A DNA stretch of 64,000 nucleotides from Acidimicrobiia bacterium (lineage in GTDB: Bacteria; Actinomycetota; Acidimicrobiia; Acidimicrobiales; Bin134), in contig VYCQ01000021.1 of NCBI GenBank assembly GCA_009843865.1, positions 1-64,000 on the forward strand, given 5' to 3'. Both the position numbers and the translations under genes were made by a program. The notes under the pieces were generated by a model. That model did no database searches and had not been told where the DNA came from. It saw nothing but the letters and a program-made list of their open reading frames with translations. Every line of letters begins with the position of its first letter. Position 1 is the first letter of the stretch. Positions 3,103 through 15,190 of the stretch are shown here, one piece after another.

Positions 3103-3335
3103 TGCAACCCCATAACTGCTCCTCAACAGCTACAAACGCGTCGCCCCTCACCGTGTCGGAAGCTCAAAAAAGTGGAACCCTGCACCTCTCCGGACGGCGA
3201 GTGACCAGGTTTCTGCGCGTTAAGAGATACGCAAAAACACCCGACAGAAAGCACAAAAACAGGGATCAGAACAACTTCGCCCTGTGGCCGGTGGAGCCAA
3301 GGGACAGCTACAGGCTATGGGTTCGCTTCGGAGAC
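3103..3335 (+). pseudogene. Decayed third copy of the compound repeat, with a DUF2442 N-terminal remnant
   Basis: Three blocks of the longer repeats at 5145 and 10743 recur here in the same order and orientation, with internal deletions. An hsdS-tail piece (about 3103-3162) ends in CCCCTCACCGTGTCGGA. The hairpin block (3178-3209) follows, and then about 100 bases matching the start of the DUF2442 gene at 11141. The last part encodes VEPRDSYRLWVRF, the conserved DUF2442 opening, with the Trp codon TGG that is a stop in the 11141 copy. Similarity stops close to the 3' end of the AlbA_2 gene (3336), which apparently replaced the rest of DUF2442. The plus-strand frame stays open to 3362 but is a truncated remnant. 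Confidence 0.7.
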
Positions 3336-5111
3336 TTAGGTGCGGCGGTAGTCGAGCAGTGACGAGCGTCCTTCGATAGCGGTCACGGTCACCAACAGCA
3401 CGTTCCCGTTGGCATCTTCGAGTCGTAGCTGATCAGTACCGGGCGCGAAGTGAACCGGCTGCTGCTGGCCTCCGTTGATTGCCACATTGTCCGCATACAG
3501 GTAAGTGCGGTCGTGAGTATCACGGATGGGGTTCAGCCGTCCCTCTAGGCCCGGCAGGAATCCCGTGGACTCGGCGAATACTGCCGAACCGCCGTCCGGC
3601 ACTGGTTTCAGTTCTATGGCAAGCGCACGCTCTGCGGGCACCCAACCCCGCTCCACATGGGCAACACAGCCCTCACTCGCTACGAACACGGTCATGGGCA
3701 ACTCGGCCGAGTGCAGCTCCAGATGCGCGTCGCCCTGGGCATCGGTCACAGCACGCTTCCATGTCTTGTTCGGGAATAGTGCCAGCACCGTAGCTCCTGC
3801 TATCGGCAGTCCGGCACTACGCACCGTCACGACGGGGGCTGCGGGATCCGCTGGTGGTGGTGCCGCGGGAATGGTCAGACACAGCTCATCGCCATCAAGC
3901 AACCGGTAGATCGGCAGCTTGCCAGTAAGCGCCTGGGTCTCGCGCCGGATAATCGTCACCCCATCGCCCCTGCGCTCCATGAAATAACTCCGACCCGCAG
4001 CATCAATCCCGCTCGCGTCCAAACGTCCAAAGACCGACGTGAGCAGTTCATTGCGTGTGGCCTGCCGCTCTCCCATGCTGTCGATGCTCAAACTGTTAGG
4101 CAGCGACCCGAGCGAGCACAGCTCAAGGCGGTCAGCAAAGATAGACAGACGGATTCTGCTTGAGCGCAGCGCGTAATCGCGATGAACAACGGCATTCACG
4201 ACCGCTTCGAAGACCGCAGCAAGGCTGTACTCGGGCACGTTCTCCCTCGCCGGAGTCTTGCGTGCGCTTACCCGCATATTCCGCTCCACAAACAGCAGCA
4301 CGTCACGGACCTGGCGGTCAAGCGGACCATCGATCGTCTGTGCGTCGAGTTGGCCGGACGCACGGTCGGTGCCTCGATAGCGCACCGCTGAGATCTCCGC
4401 CGCCGGGATCCACTCCGCCGGACGATGCGTACACATCAAAACCCCAGCTACCGAGGCACGCTCTTCGCCGGTCTCATCTCGAGTGAGCAGGCCCAGCTTC
4501 GCTAGGCCTACCTGGGGATCGGCCTGTCCGTGGGGGCTGAGCAACGGTCGCCACAGATCCACCTCCAGTGTCGAGAATCCAGTGGCTCCTACCGGCTGAT
4601 GGTCGAACCCCATAAACCGAGCCTGACCAAGACGTTGCGCCAACCGAAGTCGCTCATCGGGTGACAAAGGCACATTCGCAGCGCCTACACGCTGCAAGGC
4701 ACCGTTCGGGCCGTCGTGCTGAGCGTCGCCGCTAGGCACAGCAACCAACAGAAACGCCTTGCCTTCGTACTCCTGGCGATAAATCCGCACCCGCACCGGC
4801 GGTTTCACCGAGTCGGTGCTGACCTCGCGGACTGCCGTTTCAGCTATATCTAACTGCTGACGCGACATGTCAGTCACCACACCTGCGTCGGTGACCCCCA
4901 AAAGCAGCACGCCACCGTCTGAGTTAGCGAAAGCCACTATCGAATCAGCCCAAGAGTCGCGCTGCGAGGAGGCCACTTTGCTGCCTCGGAACTGGACCTC
5001 CTTGAACTCCCAGCCGCTGTCCTCACCGAGCCGGAGGTGACGCTCGACGACATCATCGGGAAACGGCAAATCAAGCATTCGTCCGGACGATACCGTGTTG
5101 TCAGCCATCAT
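3336..5111 (-). CDS. AlbA_2 (Schlafen-type) domain protein with ATPase-like domain and C-terminal Ig-like domain
   Basis: A 591-residue protein. The N-terminal AlbA_2 domain shows the motifs WEFKEVQ (residues 34-40) and AFANSDGGVLLLGVTD (60-75), known from putative nucleic-acid-binding AlbA_2/Schlafen-like proteins. Residues about 280-420 match the associated GHKL-like ATP-binding domain (EAVVNAVVHRDY at 302-313). Residues about 440-520 resemble a carboxypeptidase-regulatory or Cna-B beta-sandwich (PIAGATVLALF...TDAQGDAHLEL), unusual in a cytoplasmic protein. The start overlaps the stop of an hsdS fragment by four bases. AlbA_2 proteins are regular passengers in type I R-M operons, so a role in defence or in controlling R-M is inferred. 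By eye the gene is richer in GC than its neighbours. Confidence 0.8.
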   Translation of the reverse strand: MMADNTVSSGRMLDLPFPDDVVERHLRLGEDSGWEFKEVQFRGSKVASSQRDSWADSIVAFANSDGGVLLLGVTDAGVVTDMSRQQLDIAETAVREVSTDSVKPPVRVRIYRQEYEGKAFLLVAVPSGDAQHDGPNGALQRVGAANVPLSPDERLRLAQRLGQARFMGFDHQPVGATGFSTLEVDLWRPLLSPHGQADPQVGLAKLGLLTRDETGEERASVAGVLMCTHRPAEWIPAAEISAVRYRGTDRASGQLDAQTIDGPLDRQVRDVLLFVERNMRVSARKTPARENVPEYSLAAVFEAVVNAVVHRDYALRSSRIRLSIFADRLELCSLGSLPNSLSIDSMGERQATRNELLTSVFGRLDASGIDAAGRSYFMERRGDGVTIIRRETQALTGKLPIYRLLDGDELCLTIPAAPPPADPAAPVVTVRSAGLPIAGATVLALFPNKTWKRAVTDAQGDAHLELHSAELPMTVFVASEGCVAHVERGWVPAERALAIELKPVPDGGSAVFAESTGFLPGLEGRLNPIRDTHDRTYLYADNVAINGGQQQPVHFAPGTDQLRLEDANGNVLLVTVTAIEGRSSLLDYRRT

Positions 5112-5302
5112 GTACCTAACCCTATGCGCTCTAGCAGGGCTGACGCTGGTTCGTCGTTAGGGTCTTGAGGTACGAGCTGGTCGGAGAAAGCATTCATAAG
5201 AACCCGACGACGCAAACCCCGCAATTTCTGCTCAACAGCAGCAAGCGTATCACCCCTCACCGTGTCGGAGCACAAAGGTTGTGTGCACAACCTCGTGAGC
5301 AA
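5108..5302 (-). pseudogene. hsdS: Fragment of hsdS (3' tail only), copy A
   Basis: The 64-codon frame ends with RRRVLMNAFSDQLVPQDP and then NDEPASALLERI, the C-terminal conserved tail of type I S subunits. The same tail is present in the full hsdS at 11745 and in copy B at 10706. The target-recognition domain is absent, and the first 20 residues correspond to promoter-block DNA on the other strand, so this is a remnant. Its stop overlaps the AlbA_2 start, suggesting the AlbA_2 gene was once translationally coupled to a complete hsdS. Confidence 0.8.
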
Positions 5303-5428
5303 TAAAGGTTGCGTCTAGTCGCAAAATCACTATGATGGAAGGAGCCGAGAGCGGTAGCTCAAGGAAGTGGAGCCCGGTACCTCTCCGGACGGTGAGTGGC
5401 CGGGTTTCTGCGCGTCAGGGGAGGCACG
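5145..5428. repeat. Direct repeat copy A (hsdS tail plus promoter/hairpin block)
   Basis: These 284 bases match 10743-11026 over the same length with no visible gap and roughly 15-20 substitutions counted by eye. The repeat joins the hsdS 3' tail (minus strand) to a plus-strand promoter-like block and two hairpins. To the right of copy A comes the minus-strand DUF3800-like gene; to the right of copy B comes the DUF2442 pseudogene. The two copies are in the same orientation and about 5.6 kb apart, so recombination between them would remove everything from 5.4 to 10.7 kb as a circle. Confidence 0.9.
5277..5404 (+). promoter_or_regulatory. Operator-like palindrome, promoter and structured RNA candidate (copy A)
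   Basis: A palindrome GGTTGTG-TG-CACAACC (5277-5292) precedes TTGCGT (5309-5314) and TATGAT (5331-5336) at 16-base spacing, a good sigma-70-type promoter on the plus strand. The predicted transcript folds into two hairpins: GAGCCG/CGG..CTC (5342-5360) and CCCGG/CCGGG with an inner CTC-CC/GG-GAG stem and GGAC loop (5373-5404). No coding frame continues through both copies, so the product is RNA or a leader. In copy A it points into the 3' end of the opposite-strand DUF3800-like gene. Confidence 0.45.
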
Positions 5429-5957
5429 AATCTACCTCTTTGACTTGCTCAACGAGCTCGCGAGTCCGCTGGCGCCAGCTGCCTCCAGCCCCGTAGGCCC
5501 ATGCCACGGCATCTGCGATCCATAGGAGCGGTTCCTCGTTGGGTCCCAAATGGGCGTAGGTCAACCTAGCTGGTGCTAATCCAAGGCGCTTCGCCTCGGC
5601 AATCTGGGTTTTCTCTTTAGCATCCTGGCTGATTTCCCGCCGTTCAATGACGAGCCGCTCTCCATTGACAGCATCTAAATCCTGCAACAACGCATCGATG
5701 CTGCGCTTTCGCGCCAGTGGTTCCTTTTCTCCCGACATATAGACCCAAACTCGAACTGGGAGTTTGACCATTCCTGCCAAGATCGACTTACGACATCTAT
5801 TGCTCTCAGTGGCGAAATGCAACCGGCGCTGCCCGGACAGGAGCATTCCTCGGAGGCTCACTCTGGATCGGGTAAGGTCTTCAGCTTCGACCACCACTGC
5901 ACAGACCAGGTAGGACCGACCCCGCCTCGATTCGTCAACGAACGCTTGAACAGTCAT
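5415..5957 (-). CDS. Hypothetical protein resembling DUF3800-type (RNase H-fold) proteins
   Basis: A 180-residue soluble protein. It opens with TVQAFVDESRRGRSYLV, an early Asp-Glu pair on a strand like the YxDESG start of DUF3800, and later has LLWIADAVAWAYGAGG, comparable to the C-terminal aspartate helix of that family. LHFATESNRCRK lies between. By memory, similar short proteins are widespread in actinobacteria and have no known function; an RNase H-like nuclease fold is my inference. Its start overlaps the stop of the winged-helix gene upstream by four bases, so the two form an operon. Both sit in the cassette between repeat copies A and B. Confidence 0.5.
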   Translation of the reverse strand: MTVQAFVDESRRGRSYLVCAVVVEAEDLTRSRVSLRGMLLSGQRRLHFATESNRCRKSILAGMVKLPVRVWVYMSGEKEPLARKRSIDALLQDLDAVNGERLVIERREISQDAKEKTQIAEAKRLGLAPARLTYAHLGPNEEPLLWIADAVAWAYGAGGSWRQRTRELVEQVKEVDSCLP

Positions 5958-6781
5958 TGGGGAGCCCCTGCCGAAGAGCCTTTCCGCTCCCTTGGTTCAA
6001 GTGGAGACCTGAGGGTGTAACGGTTCTCGAAGGTGAATCCTTCTGGTGCCAGCGGAGCAGTGATCCGATGCTTTTGGATGTCGAGCAATTCATGGTGTCG
6101 AAGACCTGTTGAACCTCGGTACAAGGTGTCGGCTGAGATCCCGTAGTAGTCGGGACCCCGCTCGAGCGGAAGAACAAAGCCATTGTGGTTACTCAGCCCG
6201 ATGATCAGAAAGACCAGTTCTGGGAGGGTCAGAAGCTCAAACCACCGTTTCGGCGGCCTAATACCTTCTTCTTCTTGGGCTGGCGTAGCTCCCTCGGTCC
6301 ATAGCGCGTGGGGGATGTTGATGAAGCCGCTTCCTGGTCGAGTGTAAAGATCACCGGAACCGTCTTCGCACAACAGGGTGAGCTCGGCCAATCGATTGCG
6401 GCGTGTCCGCACGAGTAGCTTGCGATCAACCAGACGTGTCCATGCCTTGGAAATACGACCCCTGGCTACCAAACCTGTCGGGTCGGGCAATCCGAGGGCG
6501 CGAGCCCAAACTGCAGAATGATGGGATACATCCCATGGCTCCTTGCTGGCCTTGGTGAGCGCTAGGAAATAGAGCAGCAATGCTGTACGGTCACGAGCAG
6601 ATACAAAACTGGCAAGAGGCCCCGGAATCGAAATGCTCTGTTGCTTTTGTTGAATGAAAGTCCGACGCAGGGGAAATGCATCACGCGACGTACTGCCAGC
6701 GATAGCATCCACGGTATCATGCGTGGATGCTGGACTGCCGTCTTGCGATGTGAACTGCATAGCACCAACATACCGATTCAT
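5954..6781 (-). CDS. Winged-helix-like DNA-binding protein, unrecognised family
   Basis: A 275-residue protein without membrane segments. The middle (about residues 85-145) reads like a winged helix-turn-helix: a helix LALTKASKEPWDVSHHSAVWARALGL is followed by a helix around GRISKAWTRLVDRKLLVRTRRNRL, which has the shape of a recognition helix plus wing. A second similar segment (ELVFLIIGLSNHNG to GLRHHELLDIQKHRI) suggests a duplicated winged-helix unit, as in replication initiators or repressor-type regulators. The ATG lies behind AAAGAG. It is the first gene of a pair with the DUF3800-like gene and is divergent from the membrane ATPase at 7171. It could regulate the cassette; nothing in the sequence proves this. 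Confidence 0.5.
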   Translation of the reverse strand: MNRYVGAMQFTSQDGSPASTHDTVDAIAGSTSRDAFPLRRTFIQQKQQSISIPGPLASFVSARDRTALLLYFLALTKASKEPWDVSHHSAVWARALGLPDPTGLVARGRISKAWTRLVDRKLLVRTRRNRLAELTLLCEDGSGDLYTRPGSGFINIPHALWTEGATPAQEEEGIRPPKRWFELLTLPELVFLIIGLSNHNGFVLPLERGPDYYGISADTLYRGSTGLRHHELLDIQKHRITAPLAPEGFTFENRYTLRSPLEPRERKGSSAGAPQ

Positions 6782-7170: not shown

Positions 7171-9639
7171 ATGCCCAATGTCGCATTATTTCGCGCTCAG
7201 CTCCATGACGGTTTTCTGGAGCCCCTAGCGCATAACCGATTCGTCGGACGGGAAAGAGAACTGAACAGACTCGAGGAGATCCTCACTAAGCGGAAGTCCG
7301 CGACCGTTCTCTTAGCCGGGTTTCGTGGTGCTGGCAAGACAGCTCTGATGAACGAAGCGATTCGACGGGCGGATACTGACAAGAAACAGGTGGTGGTGCG
7401 CATCGCTCCGCCGCACCTGAATCAAGGATCCGATGCCCCCTCGATCCGATCGCAAGTGCTTCGCTCGCTGGCCCGAGGACTCTACTTTCAGGCCCTGGAG
7501 GTCGACGGAGTTTCGAAAGATGCGCTCTCCCTCATCAGCGCAACATACGAGAAAACCTACCTGACCGAGCTTGAGAAGCACCGAGTGGTGGAGAGCGCCG
7601 CTGCGTCGGCAAATGCTGAACGGCAAAGCACGGTTGTCCGCACATCGATCGATGTATCAGCATCCGTTCGGATGTTGGTGGGTGGACTGGTCGTGGCCCT
7701 CATCGGGACCCTGGGTGTCGGAGTGGCGGTGTGGGCTAGCGATCGTCTCGGGAACGGTTGGGGCATCGCTGCTGCTGTGTTTGTTGTGATGCTCGCTGTG
7801 GCTGGCGGCTTGATGTTCGAGCGGACGAGGAAGGATGAGACAGACACCATCTCGAAACTCATGGAGAAGGACGGGAGGACGGAACTCGGGAAGTTCGACC
7901 TGTCAGATGAAACTCTTGAGTTCGAACTTCGGCGTTCACTGGCCGAGTTGGCAGACGAAGGCCGACGGGTCATCTTTGTACTCGATGAGTTGGACAAGCT
8001 TCACTGGGACGGCGACGAGCCCTCCGGCATCGAAGACTCGCCTGTCTTTGCGATTCTGACTTCGCTGAAGAACTTCTTCATGCTTGGCAACGCCGTCTAC
8101 ATTTTCATCACCGACAATGAGTTCTTCGAGCGGGTATCGCTTGAACAGCGAAGCGGGAGCTATGCGCTGTCACACACCATCTTCAGTGATCGGATTTACG
8201 TCGGCCCTTTGCACTATTCCGAGCTTGAGGACCTCATTGATCGATCGATCCGGGAGAAACCGGCTGTGAAAGACTACGACCGGTTCCAAAATTTCGTGTG
8301 CTGGGAGTCGAAGAACCACGCATTCGATGCTATTCAAGTTCTAGGCGCGTTCGTCGAGAACCACAACCAAAAAGCTGTGCTCGCACCTACACAAAGCGGT
8401 GAGATTGACGGCGTATGGCAGGAAGGGAGCCTCCCATCTGATTGGCTTACAAAAGCAGCCCTCCAAAAGCATGTCGGGGTCGCTTACGGCGAAGCACGAC
8501 GCTCTGGGCAGGGCGAGGCTCTCTACAACCGGTCATTATGGGAGTCTCTTCATGCAGTAGCAGTGACACTGTTGGAAAGCAAGACAGTAGCCGTAGCGGA
8601 AGAGGGAATACTTGACCTGCCCGGACGCTTCATCGACTCACTGCCAGCAGATGATGTAATCGGCGTTAGCGATGCCGTTCAGCGAATGCTGCTCCGAATG
8701 GAGCGCCATCGCGCTGTTCAGGAAGAGGCCGGGGAAGACGAGAGCGAATACGATGACACTAATACTGAAATCTTCAAGACTAGACAAGCGCAATGCTATC
8801 GGTTGGCATCAGATGTGGCTTACCCGCCGTCGACAATCGCGAGCGAGTCAGTGCTTCTTCCCTCTGAGCAGACACTGATCGAATCAATGAATCGCCTCGA
8901 GACAGCCGTGAAGCTATCCCGCGACATTACAACCCTGACAGAAAATCAGATGCAAATGTTAAGCAGACTTCAGGCGATAGCGAAGGAGGTTAAACAAACC
9001 GGTCCAAGAAAGGCTCAAAAGCGGTTTATCGTCTTAAAAGCAATAGCCGAAGCTGGCGAACTTGCTGAGGCAGTCGTTCAAAGGGCTATCACCGGAGTTG
9101 TAAAAGAATGGGCATCCTCATTTGGCGGAGTTGTCAATATAGGTCTCCACTCAACCTGTCCACGCTCAGGTCAGGCTTGGGTTAATGTTCTCAGTCAGGA
9201 TTTCTCGCCATTCATCACCAAACTCCAAAAACTGGACATAGAACCGCTCATCGTGGGTGGCAACGCCAACGAGAATGGGATTGTAATGTTACCGCTGGTC
9301 GACGATGGCAACGCCGTCGCTCTCCAGAAGATCTACGGCCAATGCCTTTCAGCCGACCAAAACACGCGCGACGAGCGAAAACAACGTTTGCCGGTGGTAC
9401 ATATAGACATCAAAACAGGGAAAGGTACCCGGTTCCCGACCGAGATGATCGCTGTCATTTCAGAAGTTCAGCCAACCGGATGGTGGGGACAATTTGGATC
9501 TCAGCCCCCTTCCAAGAAAAGCAAGCGGTCAACAAGGCTCACTGGCTGGTCACACTTCGACCTCGAAGGAACTCTCAGCAACATCAACGAATTACCAATC
9601 CTGCTCAACAAAGTCTCATTCGTTGGATCTCAGGAGTGA
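7171..9639 (+). CDS. Membrane-inserted P-loop ATPase, KAP-like architecture; candidate defence protein
   Basis: An 822-residue protein. NRFVGREREL (22-31) resembles the entry to an Orc1/STAND-type ATPase. Walker A is GFRGAGKT (50-57) and Walker B is VIFVLDELDKL (267-277). Two transmembrane helices (about 167-189 and 197-216) sit in the insert between Walker A and Walker B. This is the hallmark arrangement of KAP P-loop NTPases, several of which are linked to phage exclusion; membership here is inferred from architecture. The C-terminal 300 residues hold a coiled-coil-like stretch (EQTLIESMNRLETAVKLS to VKQTGPRKAQKR) and an unrecognised alpha/beta domain ending near TRLTGWSHFDLEG. The start is ATG at 7171 with no clear Shine-Dalgarno sequence. 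A partner gene follows at 9798 on the same strand. The pair is bracketed by direct repeats. Confidence 0.65.
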   Translation: MPNVALFRAQLHDGFLEPLAHNRFVGRERELNRLEEILTKRKSATVLLAGFRGAGKTALMNEAIRRADTDKKQVVVRIAPPHLNQGSDAPSIRSQVLRSLARGLYFQALEVDGVSKDALSLISATYEKTYLTELEKHRVVESAAASANAERQSTVVRTSIDVSASVRMLVGGLVVALIGTLGVGVAVWASDRLGNGWGIAAAVFVVMLAVAGGLMFERTRKDETDTISKLMEKDGRTELGKFDLSDETLEFELRRSLAELADEGRRVIFVLDELDKLHWDGDEPSGIEDSPVFAILTSLKNFFMLGNAVYIFITDNEFFERVSLEQRSGSYALSHTIFSDRIYVGPLHYSELEDLIDRSIREKPAVKDYDRFQNFVCWESKNHAFDAIQVLGAFVENHNQKAVLAPTQSGEIDGVWQEGSLPSDWLTKAALQKHVGVAYGEARRSGQGEALYNRSLWESLHAVAVTLLESKTVAVAEEGILDLPGRFIDSLPADDVIGVSDAVQRMLLRMERHRAVQEEAGEDESEYDDTNTEIFKTRQAQCYRLASDVAYPPSTIASESVLLPSEQTLIESMNRLETAVKLSRDITTLTENQMQMLSRLQAIAKEVKQTGPRKAQKRFIVLKAIAEAGELAEAVVQRAITGVVKEWASSFGGVVNIGLHSTCPRSGQAWVNVLSQDFSPFITKLQKLDIEPLIVGGNANENGIVMLPLVDDGNAVALQKIYGQCLSADQNTRDERKQRLPVVHIDIKTGKGTRFPTEMIAVISEVQPTGWWGQFGSQPPSKKSKRSTRLTGWSHFDLEGTLSNINELPILLNKVSFVGSQE

Positions 9640-9765
9640 CTTTACCAAAAACCAACATGCCGACAACGGTCCGAAGCAACGCGGGCAATGAACTCACAAA
9701 ACGAAAGCCCATCGCCCCTCCCCAAACAAGGTGCCAATCTGAAAACAAGATCTTGCCCTACAAAG

Positions 9766-9779
9766 CACCTTGCAAGGTG
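9766..9779. promoter_or_regulatory. Perfect 14-base palindrome between the ATPase and its partner gene
   Basis: CACCTTGCAAGGTG is fully self-complementary and lies 18 bases before the ATG at 9798. A further half site, AAGGTGCC, is at 9728-9735. It could be an operator for a separate promoter of the partner gene or a short RNA hairpin. The 158-base gap between the genes contains no reading frame worth noting. Confidence 0.35.
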
Positions 9780-9797
9780 TGAAGATAAGACTTTGGA

Positions 9798-10643
9798 ATG
9801 GGCAAAATTCAAGCTGTGACTCCTGAAAACTTCTTCGAAGATGACATCTTCTCTGATAAACGCTCGCTCAATATCGAACTCTTGGGACACATACGTGCAG
9901 GCAACTACACGGAGCGCACCGATGCGGAAGTTGCCGTCGCGTTGCTGAGGCTAGCGCACGACGAACTTGAAGCCTACGGCACCAGCGGGACAGAGCGGAC
10001 AGATGAAAACGGAATTCGCCTCATCCTGAGAACTATCCGAATCTTGTTACAGCGGCTGGGAGTTCCACTTGAGCTCCCATTCAGCGACTACCGCACTTTC
10101 CGCAGCCACTGGATGGCCAACGATGCCTACGGCAGCTGGCAAGCCCGGCGCGACATCCTAAATGAACTCCTAGAGCCCGTGCACCTGAAACTCGCACGGC
10201 TTGAAGATCTCGAACTGGAATCGACCTTGGCAAGGCCGATCACAAACCATCCGGGCACGGGATGGTCCCTCGTGGATGCCGAGATCAACGAAATGCGGCG
10301 CCACTTTGGGATGGCTCGGAGCGCTCAGGACTACCGCAATATCGGAAACGACTGTGTGGCGGTTCTCGAACGGCTAAGCGAAGCCTTATTCGATTCCGAA
10401 CTTCACTTGAAAAAAGGCGAACAAGTCCCACCTGTCGCAAACACCAAGCTGCGACTTGGAAAGTTCGTCGAACATACCGCATCAGGTACTACAAATGCGG
10501 AGATAAGAAAGATGGCCCGAGCCGCCATCGAGTTAGCCCAAGCCGTCAAGCACCAAAGCGAACCAACCAGAAGGCATGCTGGCATCGCCGCGGACTCTGT
10601 AATCCTGCTAGCGAATATCCTTCGCCGACTTGCCGAGGAATAG
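9798..10643 (+). CDS. Unrecognised alpha-helical partner of the membrane ATPase (HEPN-like fold possible)
   Basis: A 281-residue soluble protein that is almost entirely helical by composition, with no cysteines in known metal motifs. The C-terminal part (about residues 165-281) has two long helices: an LERLSEALFDSELHLKK type segment, and later AVKHQSEPTRRHAGIAADS followed by VILLANILRRLAE. This pattern, polar His/Arg residues at the start of a last hydrophobic helix, recalls HEPN-type or abortive-infection C-terminal domains. However, the strict R-x4-6-H catalytic motif is not evident, so the fold is open. It lies 158 bases downstream of the ATPase in the same orientation, within the same repeat-bounded cassette, and is probably part of the same system. 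Confidence 0.4.
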   Translation: MGKIQAVTPENFFEDDIFSDKRSLNIELLGHIRAGNYTERTDAEVAVALLRLAHDELEAYGTSGTERTDENGIRLILRTIRILLQRLGVPLELPFSDYRTFRSHWMANDAYGSWQARRDILNELLEPVHLKLARLEDLELESTLARPITNHPGTGWSLVDAEINEMRRHFGMARSAQDYRNIGNDCVAVLERLSEALFDSELHLKKGEQVPPVANTKLRLGKFVEHTASGTTNAEIRKMARAAIELAQAVKHQSEPTRRHAGIAADSVILLANILRRLAEE

Positions 10644-10705
10644 CGCTCGCTCGGAATCCTACAGAACAGCCACAACGCGGCCGCGCTCCATTAGGCAGAG
10701 TGAAC

Positions 10706-10912
10706 TCACCTTGTCCCTAAGATTCGATCCAATAGAGCAGAGGCTGGTTCGTCGTTAGGGTCTTGAGGTACGAGCTGGCCGGAGAAAGCATTCATAAGAA
10801 CCCGACGACGCAAACCGCCCAATTTTTCTTCAACAGCAGCAAGCGTATCACCCCTCACCTTGTCGGAGCACAGAGGTTGTTTGCGCAACCTCGTGAGCAA
10901 TAAAGGTTGCAT
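10706..10912 (-). pseudogene. hsdS: Fragment of hsdS (3' tail only), copy B
   Basis: The 68-codon frame ends in RRRVLMNAFSGQLVPQDP and NDEPASALLDRI, the same S-subunit tail as copy A and the complete hsdS. No target-recognition domain precedes it. The opening residues come from the promoter block on the other strand. It lies directly behind the partner gene of the ATPase, in convergent orientation. Confidence 0.8.
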
Positions 10913-11026
10913 CTAGTCGCAAAATCACTATGATGGAATGAGCCGAGAGCGGTAGCTCAAGGAAGTAGAACCCGGTACCTCTCCGGACGGTGAGTGGCCG
11001 GGCTCCTGCGCGTCAGGGGAGGCACG
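10743..11026. repeat. Direct repeat copy B (hsdS tail plus promoter/hairpin block)
   Basis: The partner of copy A (5145-5428), same length and orientation. A core of about 36 bases (GGCTGGTTCGTCGTTNGGGT, then CTTGAGGTACGAGC) is also present in the complete hsdS around 11783-11818. In copy B the repeat is followed by an intact-length but stop-bearing DUF2442-DUF4160 pair, which probably shows the original arrangement of the unit. Confidence 0.9.
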
Positions 11027-11140
11027 CCGCAGAGAGATCAATTTCAGGTCAATACGGCAGTTCTCCTCCGCTAGCCTGGTTCTCGGTGACAGACGGTTGT
11101 GCTTTCGCCTTGAAGGAACGCCCGACAGAAAGTGCAGGAG
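10875..11140 (+). promoter_or_regulatory. Operator-like repeat, promoter and structured 200-base leader before DUF2442
   Basis: GGTTG/CAACC arms (10875-10890), TTGCAT (10907-10912) and TATGAT (10929-10934), spaced 16 bases, mirror copy A. The hairpins at 10940-10958 and 10971-11002 are retained. A further CTGCG...CGCAG pair follows near 11006-11032. The leader then runs about 200 bases to the DUF2442 ATG at 11141, which is preceded by GCAGGAG. The length and folding suggest a regulatory leader or a separate small RNA; no protein frame is conserved between the copies. Confidence 0.4.
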
Positions 11141-11434
11141 ATGGAATCAGAGCAGCTTCGCCCCGTGGTAGTTGAGCCAAGAGACGACTACAGGCTGTAG
11201 GTTCGCTTCAACGACGGTGTCGAGGGTGAAATAGATCTCTCAGCACGGGTCGGCCGGGGTGTCTTCAAAGTTTGGGACGAGCCAGGAGTTTTCGAGTCGG
11301 TGAAGATCATGCCGAACCGAGCGATCTGCTGGACTGAGGAAGCCGAACTCTGTGCTGATGCCGTCTATCTGGAGCTCACCAACAAGAAGCCTGAGGAAAT
11401 CATGCCAGGCCTGCGGGCCTACTCAGATGCCTGA
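11141..11434 (+). pseudogene. DUF2442 protein, interrupted by an in-frame TAG
   Basis: Read from ATG 11141, the frame gives VEPRDDYRL, a TAG at 11198-11200, then VRFNDGVEGEIDLSARVGRG and later ADAVYLELTNKKPEEIMP, a complete DUF2442 of 98 codons. The decayed copy at 3.3 kb has TGG (Trp) at the stop position, so the ancestral residue was Trp and a single G-to-A change created the stop. The 3' end overlaps the DUF4160 start by eight bases. DUF2442 and DUF4160 genes are often neighbours and are suspected to form toxin-antitoxin-like pairs; this is unproven. Confidence 0.75.
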
Positions 11435-11744: not shown

Positions 11745-12365
11745 TCACCGCTGAGAATCAGCGATGCGCTTCAGTAAGGCTGAGGCTGGTTCGTCGTTGG
11801 GGTCTTGAGGTACGAGCCGACCAGAGAAGGCTTCGCGCAAGATGGATCGGCGTAATGCCTCCAACTTCTCCCACCCCGCGGCAAGTACTCCTTCAACCGC
11901 ATCCAGACGAGAGAAGTGCTCTTCGATAGCAGCGACGACTCGGAGTTGTTCATTGATTGGAGGCAACAGAACTGGTATCTCTTTCGATGCCTTCACTTTC
12001 ACAAAGGGTTGCGCCGAACCTCCTTTCAGCCAAAAATCTTCATCATTGGTTAAGTACCAAAGCCATTTTGAATCAATCCCATCGTGTGGAATGAGGACAT
12101 GAGTATTTGCAATCGCTGTCCAACTCCCGAGGGCAAGAAATGTTTTTCCACATCTGGCACCCACCGCTGACAACACCACTCCAGATTCACGATACTCTGC
12201 CTCTTCACACCAAACATCTTGACCAGAAGCGCTATACGCTGGCACCAAGCCACTTTCGGGAGCTGCGGCTAGTCGTCCCTTTATCAGTTTTGAGTTGCCC
12301 GACCTTGTTCTGACACATTCGCCGAGACTGATCTGAACCCACCCCGGCGGTAGTTCACCAGTCAT
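11745..12365 (-). CDS. hsdS: Type I restriction-modification specificity subunit, half-size HsdS
   Basis: 206 residues: one target-recognition domain (about 1-140, beginning PPGWVQISLGECVRTRSGN) and one coiled-coil conserved region (about 141-206, PPINEQLRVVAAIEEHFSRL to LVPQDPNDEPASALLKRI). A normal HsdS is about 400 residues with two recognition domains, so this is half a subunit. Half subunits can dimerise and then recognise a palindromic bipartite site, or this may be a deletion product. The start overlaps the hsdR stop (ATGA). The tail sequence is duplicated at 5108 and 10706. The expected hsdM neighbour is missing here and found at the window's left edge. Confidence 0.85.
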   Translation of the reverse strand: MTGELPPGWVQISLGECVRTRSGNSKLIKGRLAAAPESGLVPAYSASGQDVWCEEAEYRESGVVLSAVGARCGKTFLALGSWTAIANTHVLIPHDGIDSKWLWYLTNDEDFWLKGGSAQPFVKVKASKEIPVLLPPINEQLRVVAAIEEHFSRLDAVEGVLAAGWEKLEALRRSILREAFSGRLVPQDPNDEPASALLKRIADSQR

Positions 12366-15190
12366 GCAGCCAATGCCTCGGTTAGATCGTCCAGCAAAGA
12401 CCTCAAATCGCTTCCAAAAAGTTGGCGGGCTTTGCCCAGCCCGCCGCGGTCGCTGAAGGGAGGCGACTGAAGGTCGGCTAGGTCGATGCTGAGGCTAGAG
12501 GCGATCCGGTCTTTTATCAGGCTGAGAAAGGCTGATTGATCGTTGGTGAAGGTGGCACCAGCGGTTTGCTGTTGGTTCAACCAAACCTCGAAGCGCTCGT
12601 TGACCAGATCGGGGTAGGCCACCAGCTCGTCGGCGTTTCCGAGGGCGTAGCGAACCAGGCTTACGAGGTCGGTGGATACTCGATACCCTGAGCCTCGCAC
12701 TTTAGATTTGTCGAGGGTTTCGTATGCCTGCCAGAGGATATCTGGGGTCCAGCGATGAGGGGGACGGCCGATGGCGCTGACCAGTTCCTTGACATCCTCA
12801 TAGGTGAGGCCGCCACCATAGGGCTGGCTGTAGAGGACTTCCAGCGCAGCGATCTCGTCTTTGTGGTCTTCGATGAACTGCTTCCACGAGGCAACCTGAT
12901 TACGGGCTCGGTCGGCAGCATCAACAGAAAACTCACCTAAGATAACCCGATCTCTTGAAGTAATGTCGATCACCTGCTCGTAGCTACGACGGATGTCCAC
13001 CAGCTTCTCCCGCAACTCGGGGTTGCCAGCCAAAGGCTGAACCGCCTCGGCGATCAACTGCTGAACGGCTGCGGCCACCTGCTCAGGGGTCGGGGCATCG
13101 GTGCCTGTCGTGGTCGCAGCGGCAACAAGCTGACGATCGGGGTCGAGGGCATCAGTAATTTGACGAACCAAATCGCTCAGTTCGACCCCGGCGGCCAACT
13201 CCACCTCAGCCCGGTCTTCCGTGGTGATCCGACGGTCGAGTCGAGCCAAGCGTGATGCCACCGATGACACCACATCGGGATCCCTGACCCCGAGGCCGAT
13301 CTGGGTAAGCAGCTTGTCGAAGCTCACATGGCGCTGTCGCTCTAGCGGGACAGTGTCGTGAAGGTCGGCCTCGGTCACACCCACCGCGTCCACTATCACG
13401 AAGCGCTCCTTAGCCTGAGCATCGGGGGTGACGATGCGAAGGTGGTCGCTGTCAATCACTCGGACACCACGGCCCTTCATCTGCTCGAAAAAGTTACGAC
13501 TGCGCACCATGCGCATGAACATCACGCACTCGATGGGCTTCACATCGGTGCCAGTGGCAATCATGTCCACGGTGACCGCGATGCGGGTGGGATAGTCAGT
13601 GCGGAACTTCTGAAGTAGCTGCTCAGCACTCTCACCCGATTCGCCCGAGCGATAGGTGATCTTCACCGCCCCCTGATTGCCAAGACCGAACTCTTCCCGC
13701 ACGATCTGCACGATGTCGTCAGCGTGACTGTCGTCTTTGGCGAAGATGAGGGTCTTGGGAATGTGGCACAAAAAGCCCTCATCGTCGCGTTTTCGGTCTT
13801 CAAACATCTCGGGCAACGAATTACGAAACGTGCGCATGATGGTACGAATCTGATCGGGAGCCACGACCCGTTTATCAAGCTCTGCTGCGTTGTAGGCAAT
13901 ATCGTCATCAGCTCGCTCAAGGCGGGTGCTGCGGGTCTCCCTGTCGCGAAACTCTGTCACAAAACCAGCAGGAACAGTGCCGCCTGCTTCGGTGATCTCA
14001 GTTTTGATGCGGAATATATCGAAGTCCACATTCACACGGTCGGCAACTGCTTGGGTGTGCACATACTCCATCACCAGATTCTGGTCGAAAAAGCCAAACG
14101 TCTGGATGCCGGGCGTGGCGGTGAGGCCCACCAAAAAAGCATCAAAGTACTCCAGCACCTGACGCCACACGCCGTAAATCGAACGGTGGCACTCGTCGAT
14201 GATGATCACATCGTACGACTCAATAGGCACCCTCGGGTTGTAGGCCACCTCCACCGGCTGCTCAGGAGCAGTGTCGAAGCCCGACCGCTCATCAAAACCT
14301 TCGTCGAACTCCTCTCCCCGCAAGATGGAGTAAAGGCGCTGAATGGTGCTTACATGGACTTTGGTGGCAGCCTCATTGGCCATGTCAAGCTGCGAAGAGG
14401 CCAACCGGCGAACGTTATAAAGCTCGGTAAACTTACGGCGATCACCGGGCACTTCGAAGCCCTCAAACTCGCGAACCGCTTGGCGGCCCAGGTTAGCCCG
14501 GTCGACCAGAAACAAGATGCGGTTGACACGAGCATGGCGAAGCAACCGATAGCACACGTTGGCAGCGGTAAATGTCTTGCCCGCGCCCGTGGCCATCTGG
14601 ATCAGTGCCTTAGGGCGGTTTTCCTTAAACGAAGCTTCCAAGTTGCAGATGGCCTCGGCCTGTGCTGGCCATAGCCCCGGTGGATCATCACCTAGGTCGG
14701 GCAACTCGCTGAAGCCATTGCGCAAGGTGGCGCAACCATCAAACTCGTTATAGCTGTCACGCCAGCGAGCCAGCGTCTCGGGTCGGTGGAAGGCGAACAC
14801 CCGCCGAGATGTGGGCTTGGGGTCAAGCCCGCTGGTGAAACGAGTCTCGGCGCCAGTTGACTCGTAACCAAACGGCAACGCGCCATCAACTAGAAAGGCT
14901 GGCAACTCGCCGGGATAGGCCGTCTGATACTTGCGGGTCTGGGGCTCTACCCCGGTGAGGGTGGTGCCTTTCTTCTTAGCCTCGATCACCCCTACAGCCT
15001 GAGAATCAACATAGAGCACATAGTCGGCTGGGCCAGCCTCAGTAGGCACCTCACGCACCGCCACACCCTTAGCTGCGGCCACCGCCGCGTGCTGGTAATC
15101 CTGCACCTCCCACCCGCACGCCTCTAACTGCTCGTCGATCGCCATGCGAGCACGAGCCTCAGGATTGAGGTAGTCAGATGATGTTGTCAT
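12362..15190 (-). CDS. hsdR: Type I restriction enzyme endonuclease/translocase subunit HsdR
   Basis: 942 residues. The N-terminal PD-(D/E)xK nuclease shows Asp56 (GPADYVLY) and Glu70-x-Lys72 (GVIEAKKKG). The SF2 helicase motor has Walker A ATGAGKT (200-206), DECH (332-335), TATPG in motif III and an MKGRGVR sequence in motif VI. The C-terminal helical part would bind the methyltransferase. This is the ATP-driven translocating and cleaving subunit and needs HsdM and HsdS to act. It is intact and first in its operon, followed by hsdS with a 4-base overlap. It is the last full gene of the island before uvrA. Confidence 0.93.
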   Translation of the reverse strand: MTTSSDYLNPEARARMAIDEQLEACGWEVQDYQHAAVAAAKGVAVREVPTEAGPADYVLYVDSQAVGVIEAKKKGTTLTGVEPQTRKYQTAYPGELPAFLVDGALPFGYESTGAETRFTSGLDPKPTSRRVFAFHRPETLARWRDSYNEFDGCATLRNGFSELPDLGDDPPGLWPAQAEAICNLEASFKENRPKALIQMATGAGKTFTAANVCYRLLRHARVNRILFLVDRANLGRQAVREFEGFEVPGDRRKFTELYNVRRLASSQLDMANEAATKVHVSTIQRLYSILRGEEFDEGFDERSGFDTAPEQPVEVAYNPRVPIESYDVIIIDECHRSIYGVWRQVLEYFDAFLVGLTATPGIQTFGFFDQNLVMEYVHTQAVADRVNVDFDIFRIKTEITEAGGTVPAGFVTEFRDRETRSTRLERADDDIAYNAAELDKRVVAPDQIRTIMRTFRNSLPEMFEDRKRDDEGFLCHIPKTLIFAKDDSHADDIVQIVREEFGLGNQGAVKITYRSGESGESAEQLLQKFRTDYPTRIAVTVDMIATGTDVKPIECVMFMRMVRSRNFFEQMKGRGVRVIDSDHLRIVTPDAQAKERFVIVDAVGVTEADLHDTVPLERQRHVSFDKLLTQIGLGVRDPDVVSSVASRLARLDRRITTEDRAEVELAAGVELSDLVRQITDALDPDRQLVAAATTTGTDAPTPEQVAAAVQQLIAEAVQPLAGNPELREKLVDIRRSYEQVIDITSRDRVILGEFSVDAADRARNQVASWKQFIEDHKDEIAALEVLYSQPYGGGLTYEDVKELVSAIGRPPHRWTPDILWQAYETLDKSKVRGSGYRVSTDLVSLVRYALGNADELVAYPDLVNERFEVWLNQQQTAGATFTNDQSAFLSLIKDRIASSLSIDLADLQSPPFSDRGGLGKARQLFGSDLRSLLDDLTEALAA

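Follow-up and report, generated by a model that had tools for sequence, protein, structure and literature searches.

Genes A and B as probable, separately transmitted defence-type cargo between hsdS and hsdM at a type I restriction-modification locus

One of the questions raised by this stretch of DNA concerns why two genes with the appearance of a system should be found side by side within a type I restriction-modification (R-M) locus. Do the two, here called gene A and gene B, work as a single anti-phage unit, or do they merely share a site? The question is posed by the window, the whole stretch of 64,000 nucleotides that was analysed, which forms the start of contig C5 in a genome of 1.79 Mb, and by a sequence-only reading that described two neighbouring plus-strand genes in a repeat-bounded cassette and took them for one autonomous defence system. 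The description is borne out: both frames are intact, both genes are under selection, the cassette is bounded by a 300-nt direct repeat, the defence setting is that of a type I R-M locus and neither gene belongs to a housekeeping family. The unity of the pair does not hold up, and the locus is probably one in which two unrelated, separately transmitted defence-type cargo genes occupy the gap between hsdS and hsdM (Table 1).

Table 1. Features of the locus and of related loci; positions are those of the window unless a locus (L number) is named, and G397 is a genome of the same genus.
Feature	Position	Strand	Remarks
hsdM, N-terminal 54 aa	1..165	-	Other part lies at the C34 contig end, split between two frames
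Schlafen/AlbA_2 cargo gene	3336..5111	-	C-terminal module common to other defence-type proteins
Direct repeat, left copy	5124..5423		hsdS 3'-end fragment + cassette flank
180-aa companion cargo gene	5415..5957	-	Weak DUF7088; also next to gene A in G397
275-aa companion cargo gene	5954..6781	-	Unnamed family; also next to gene A in G397
Gene A	7171-9639	+	Intact; 822-aa P-loop NTPase, TM hairpin between Walker A and Walker B (KAP-like / AAA_16)
Gene A Walker A, GFRGAGKT	7318..7341	+	Residues 50-57; sequence, homologue comparison
Gene A, two predicted transmembrane helices	7645..7827	+	Residues 159-191 and 192-219; hydropathy scan
Gene A Walker B, IFVLDELDK	7972..7998	+	FVLDELDK = residues 269-276; sequence
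Gene B	9798-10643	+	Intact; soluble and helical, 281 aa; domains at about 1-150 and 151-281
Direct repeat, right copy	10722..11021		92% identical to left copy
hsdS, single-TRD, half-length	11745..12365	-	206 aa; both halves of full HsdS align
hsdR, type I R-M	12362..15190	-	942 aa, intact
370-aa gap protein without family match	L084:6688-7800, L086:6499-7614		Two congeners
Gene B N-domain/Abi_C fusion	L093		Arthrobacter cousin

Since hsdR and hsdS lie to the right of genes A and B and the start of hsdM lies at the very beginning of the window, the two genes are inside the hsdS-hsdM gap, which here also holds the Schlafen/AlbA_2 gene, DUF222-HNH and Fic genes and the two companion genes. The direct repeat consists of the hsdS 3' end joined to sequence flanking the far end of the cassette, two halves that occur separately in congeners, and it would fit recombination at hsdS 3' ends. 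Fragments of the hsdS 3' end persist at about 5123-5266 and 10694-10900, in addition to the single-TRD hsdS. A plus-strand frame at 11117-11434, which by eye resembles DUF2442 and is interrupted by an in-frame stop, has a second partial copy near 3236 (3236-3329), and the two look like a toxin-antitoxin remnant. A scan for sigma-70 promoters found nothing.

The Schlafen/AlbA_2 protein carries at its C-terminus (3336-3854, minus strand) a module of about 160 aa in which a CarboxypepD_reg-like part is followed by a motif like IPGLxGxLNPIxDTxxRTYLYADNxAIxGGxQQPVxF, this last part having no Pfam model. The same tail is found on a nuclease-like protein of Chryseolinea (L059:7028-9025), a ParA-TIR protein of a Sinorhizobium plasmid (L111:6588-8792) and an AAA_14/DUF4143-looking ATPase in G263 (L113:331-2013), such that one module is present on four different conflict-type proteins. 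In Chryseolinea (L059:5627-9025) 9 bp separate an A-like membrane NTPase (463 aa) from the nuclease-like protein with the tail downstream of it, and a further ATPase gene, which by eye looks like the KAP type, lies beyond. The idea suggested by this order, that the tail marks the partner of gene A, was rejected because the upstream neighbour of the Sinorhizobium carrier is not A-like and the gene A-bearing congeners do not have the module.

What, then, occupies the same gap in related genomes? Nine further genomes of the genus carry hsdR at 84-90% identity and another two have fragments of it, and the congeners keep the order hsdR, hsdS, gap, hsdM, with hsdM seen wherever the contig reaches that far. 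The cargo of the gap, on the other hand, turns over. In G397 it consists of genes A and B plus the two companions, relative to which the window has the Schlafen gene in addition. Gene A without gene B is found in G405, in G401, where the locus is split over two contigs, and in G414, where hsdS and a gene A with one in-frame TAG share a short contig; in these three gaps gene A is alone or accompanied by small ORFs. Elsewhere the gap contains a 370-aa protein that matches no family (G399 and G408), a DUF6338 protein (G398), a HigB-like toxin (G416) or a 275-aa unnamed protein with an extra hsdS fragment (G415), and the loci of G410 and G413 are decayed. Genes A and B thus lie between hsd genes in a position whose content varies among relatives and, since the contents differ, gene A is one cargo option among several. 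Two congeners whose hsdR is decayed have, at this locus, a gene for a ClpP-like SDH-type serine protease (L090:5232-6098, L091:13002-13865).

The layout that had been proposed for the ATPase is confirmed, in that gene A has, as KAP ATPases do, two hydrophobic segments between the Walker A and Walker B motifs of a P-loop NTPase. Across five homologues G50, R52, G53, G55, K56 and T57 of Walker A are invariant, the Walker B signature FV.DELDK is kept as far as other phyla, and the hydropathy scan also detects the hydrophobic pair in the G397, G405, G105 and L059 homologues. The Pfam matches, all above cut-off, are to ATPase_2 (1.5e-10), AAA_16 (8.9e-10) and KAP_NTPase (1.1e-5), the KAP model PF07693 giving 25.3 bits against a cut-off of 20 and the other two scoring higher. 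The HMM search that the sequence-only reading had advised places gene A in the group formed by AAA_16, ATPase_2 and KAP_NTPase and leaves gene B without a Pfam match. Structure prediction, also advised, gave for gene B a nearly all-helical AlphaFold model (mean pLDDT 75) with a mostly confident C-terminal bundle, and for gene A a model (pLDDT 44) that is too poor to search. A PDB sequence search with gene A returned P-loop matches only, to ORC and Clp ATPases, and PADLOC, in a library that may not include Tmn, gave no match to a Tmn model. The values of omega are 0.17-0.22 for gene A (four genomes) and 0.10-0.19 for gene B, with 0.07-0.10 for hsdR as a comparison; synonymous change dominates, and both genes are therefore under purifying selection.

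Among 296 sampled genomes of the class, gene A was detected at E 1e-8 only in the window's own genome; phage and viral collections contained no relative and a plasmid search gave no match. A distant homologue in another class (G105), 24-27% identical over the NTPase part, adjoins an HSDR_N_2+N6_Mtase gene; ParA-like, ParB-like and ArdC-type genes are nearby. Remoter relatives, similar in the layout of the membrane insert, are present in Chryseolinea, in Acidobacteria, in Methylobacterium, where the hydrophobic segments are weaker, and on a Priestia plasmid, where the relative adjoins plasmid rep genes; in the flanks read, none of these four has a recognised R-M neighbour. As the genus copies are all orthologous, the linkage of gene A to R-M represents two events only, and both this and the remoter relatives count against its interpretation as defence cargo.

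The position of gene A also raises the possibility that it guards the type I R-M enzyme as PrrC does, silenced by the Hsd complex and freed when a phage anti-restriction factor hits that complex. PrrC is the known precedent for such a guard, and likewise for a second-line gene within an hsd locus (PMC2610378), gene A is always on the hsdS side of the gap within the genus, and its G105 homologue lies beside an R-M gene. However, gene A has no ABC-ATPase family match in Pfam, and the PrrC/RloC triad R-x3-E-x(36-52)-H is not conserved, its single match being in the window protein at R754; nor is any histidine conserved between gene A and the G105 homologue, so that there is no conserved RNase triad. 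Moreover, in the window's genome hsdM is out of frame (a break that assembly error could explain) and hsdS is halved while gene A is intact, which makes a strict guard role less likely. A guard is thus an unlikely identity for gene A, whereas a defence role in the broader sense is quite probable.

With gene B there is no match in Pfam, PADLOC or NCBIfam, and a PDB sequence search gave nothing credible; the fold search with its model was discarded, having yielded meaningless helical matches only (best E 0.14). Full-length relatives, at 43-49% identity, are present on plasmids of Arthrobacter, Rhodococcus, Prescottella, Clavibacter, Gordonia and Kocuria as well as on chromosomal and virus-labelled contigs, with one viral-contig relative in the phage and viral collections. 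In Arthrobacter U41 a 308-aa ORF joins a gene B-type N-domain to Abi_C (Pfam 1.2e-23, PADLOC AbiJ 2.4e-10), and the N-domain of gene B is therefore of the kind found on AbiJ proteins, which a 2013 survey described as HEPN RNases with exchangeable N-terminal domains, some of them in R-M operons (PMC3710099). The likeness to HEPN proteins that had been noticed in gene B is indirect, by way of this fusion. The invariant residues of the C-domain include W156, R237 and H252, but the HEPN motif Rx4-6H is not conserved, R237 and H252 standing 15 positions apart, and the alignment to the Abi_C profile is co-linear but not significant (hhalign P 0.07 with all rows and 0.01 with distant rows, probability <5%). 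An HEPN RNase in either gene A or gene B was rejected, as there is no conserved motif. Gene B is best described as AbiJ-like in design rather than as HEPN, and the balance tips slightly towards its acting as an abortive-infection protein.

The relatives of gene B have neighbours of several kinds. For instance, type III mod and res lie directly downstream in L096, an operon with DISARM drmA and drmB diverges from the relative in G096, a CBASS cyclase with a 1TM effector lies directly upstream on the same strand in G590, and a type II methyltransferase is found 1.5 kb away in L034. All four independent non-plasmid loci of full-length relatives (window/G397, L096, G096 and G590) adjoin R-M, DISARM or CBASS. 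No defence neighbour was recognised for the weaker chromosomal relatives (G025, G286, G441) in the ORF lists read, or for most plasmid-borne homologues, the latter being a further point against defence cargo. Could genes A and B then serve plasmid or island maintenance instead of phage defence, left behind by a mobile element? Gene B relatives are indeed common on actinobacterial plasmids, and gene A has its ParA-, ParB- and ArdC-like company in G105 and its rep neighbours in Priestia, but the four non-plasmid loci and the conservation of gene A at a chromosomal R-M locus make maintenance a distinctly improbable function.

Finally, do the two genes belong together? Gene A is present in 5 of the 22 genomes of the genus and gene B in 2, the latter only where gene A is found, and gene B is missing from three of the five gene A-bearing genomes. 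At the loci of gene B relatives used to examine pairing, all outside the genus, no gene A homologue was found at 18 of 18, N-domain relatives included, in flanks of roughly 2.5-9 kb. The homologues do not co-occur, the outcome set beforehand as refuting a two-gene unit, and there is no obligate pairing. The notion of one autonomous two-gene anti-phage system, with gene B sensing or acting in the cytoplasm and gene A at the membrane, is therefore largely refuted and very improbable, for although the genes are adjacent, intact, under selection and on the same strand, occur together in G397 too, and although in the genus gene B is seen only alongside gene A, gene A lacks gene B in three congeners, gene B lacks gene A at every locus read outside the genus, the G397 gene B is frameshifted beside an intact gene A, and a gap of 158 bp separates the two, which makes a shared transcript uncertain.

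The two genes are thus best regarded as separate pieces of cargo, with the hsd gap probably acting as a parking place for second-line defence genes. Gene A would be a membrane-anchored NTPase whose ATP cycle drives the membrane hairpin and the long C-terminal region, and we tentatively suggest that movement of the hairpin might block the entry of invaders or perturb and damage the membrane once they have escaped restriction. Gene B would be an AbiJ-like abortive-infection protein in which the N-domain may sense or regulate and the C-domain may take the place of the HEPN RNase. For its family as a whole it is conceivable, at a little short of even chances, that these are stand-alone abortive-infection proteins combining an AbiJ-type N-terminal sensor with a new effector domain, marked by the invariant R237 and H252, and that they back up type I and III R-M, DISARM and CBASS. 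What looked like one system therefore becomes two single-gene candidates, of which the gene B family, although none of three curated libraries includes it, is found beside four kinds of defence locus. The gap itself, with changing cargo at one locus in one genus, lends itself as a ready-made series to the question of why R-M loci come to house defence genes.

How does this arrangement compare with known systems? Accessory genes that vary between strains are found within hsd loci as the rlo/mlo ORFs of Campylobacter jejuni (PMC5183652), TgvAB lies in the hsd locus of Vibrio cholerae VPI-2 and has been shown to defend against phage (PMC11411939), and DarTG2 is carried in a type I R-M island of EPEC (PMC12255303). 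The window shares with these the presence of variable accessory cargo inside an hsd locus, but here a KAP-like membrane NTPase is carried together with an AbiJ-like protein, and whereas the embedded genes sit in the hsd operon, genes A and B are on the strand opposite to hsdS. PrrC and RloC resemble gene A in being large NTPases encoded within or beside an hsd locus, and ardC is close to some RloC genes just as an ArdC-type gene is close to the G105 homologue, but gene A has neither their ABC-ATPase character nor their anticodon-nuclease triad. Tmn is the closest functional counterpart of gene A. It belongs to the KAP NTPases, has two membrane segments and blocks several phages, the mechanism being unknown (PMC11846954). 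Both proteins have two membrane helices inserted in the P-loop NTPase domain, but gene A differs in that ATPase_2 and AAA_16 outscore KAP and in having its own C-terminal region. Gene B resembles AbiJ through the Arthrobacter fusion and a helical C-terminal domain in the same place as Abi_C, and departs from it in that this domain has no conserved Rx4-6H. Embedded R-M cargo is thus already known, and the gene B family is the newest part of what this locus contains.
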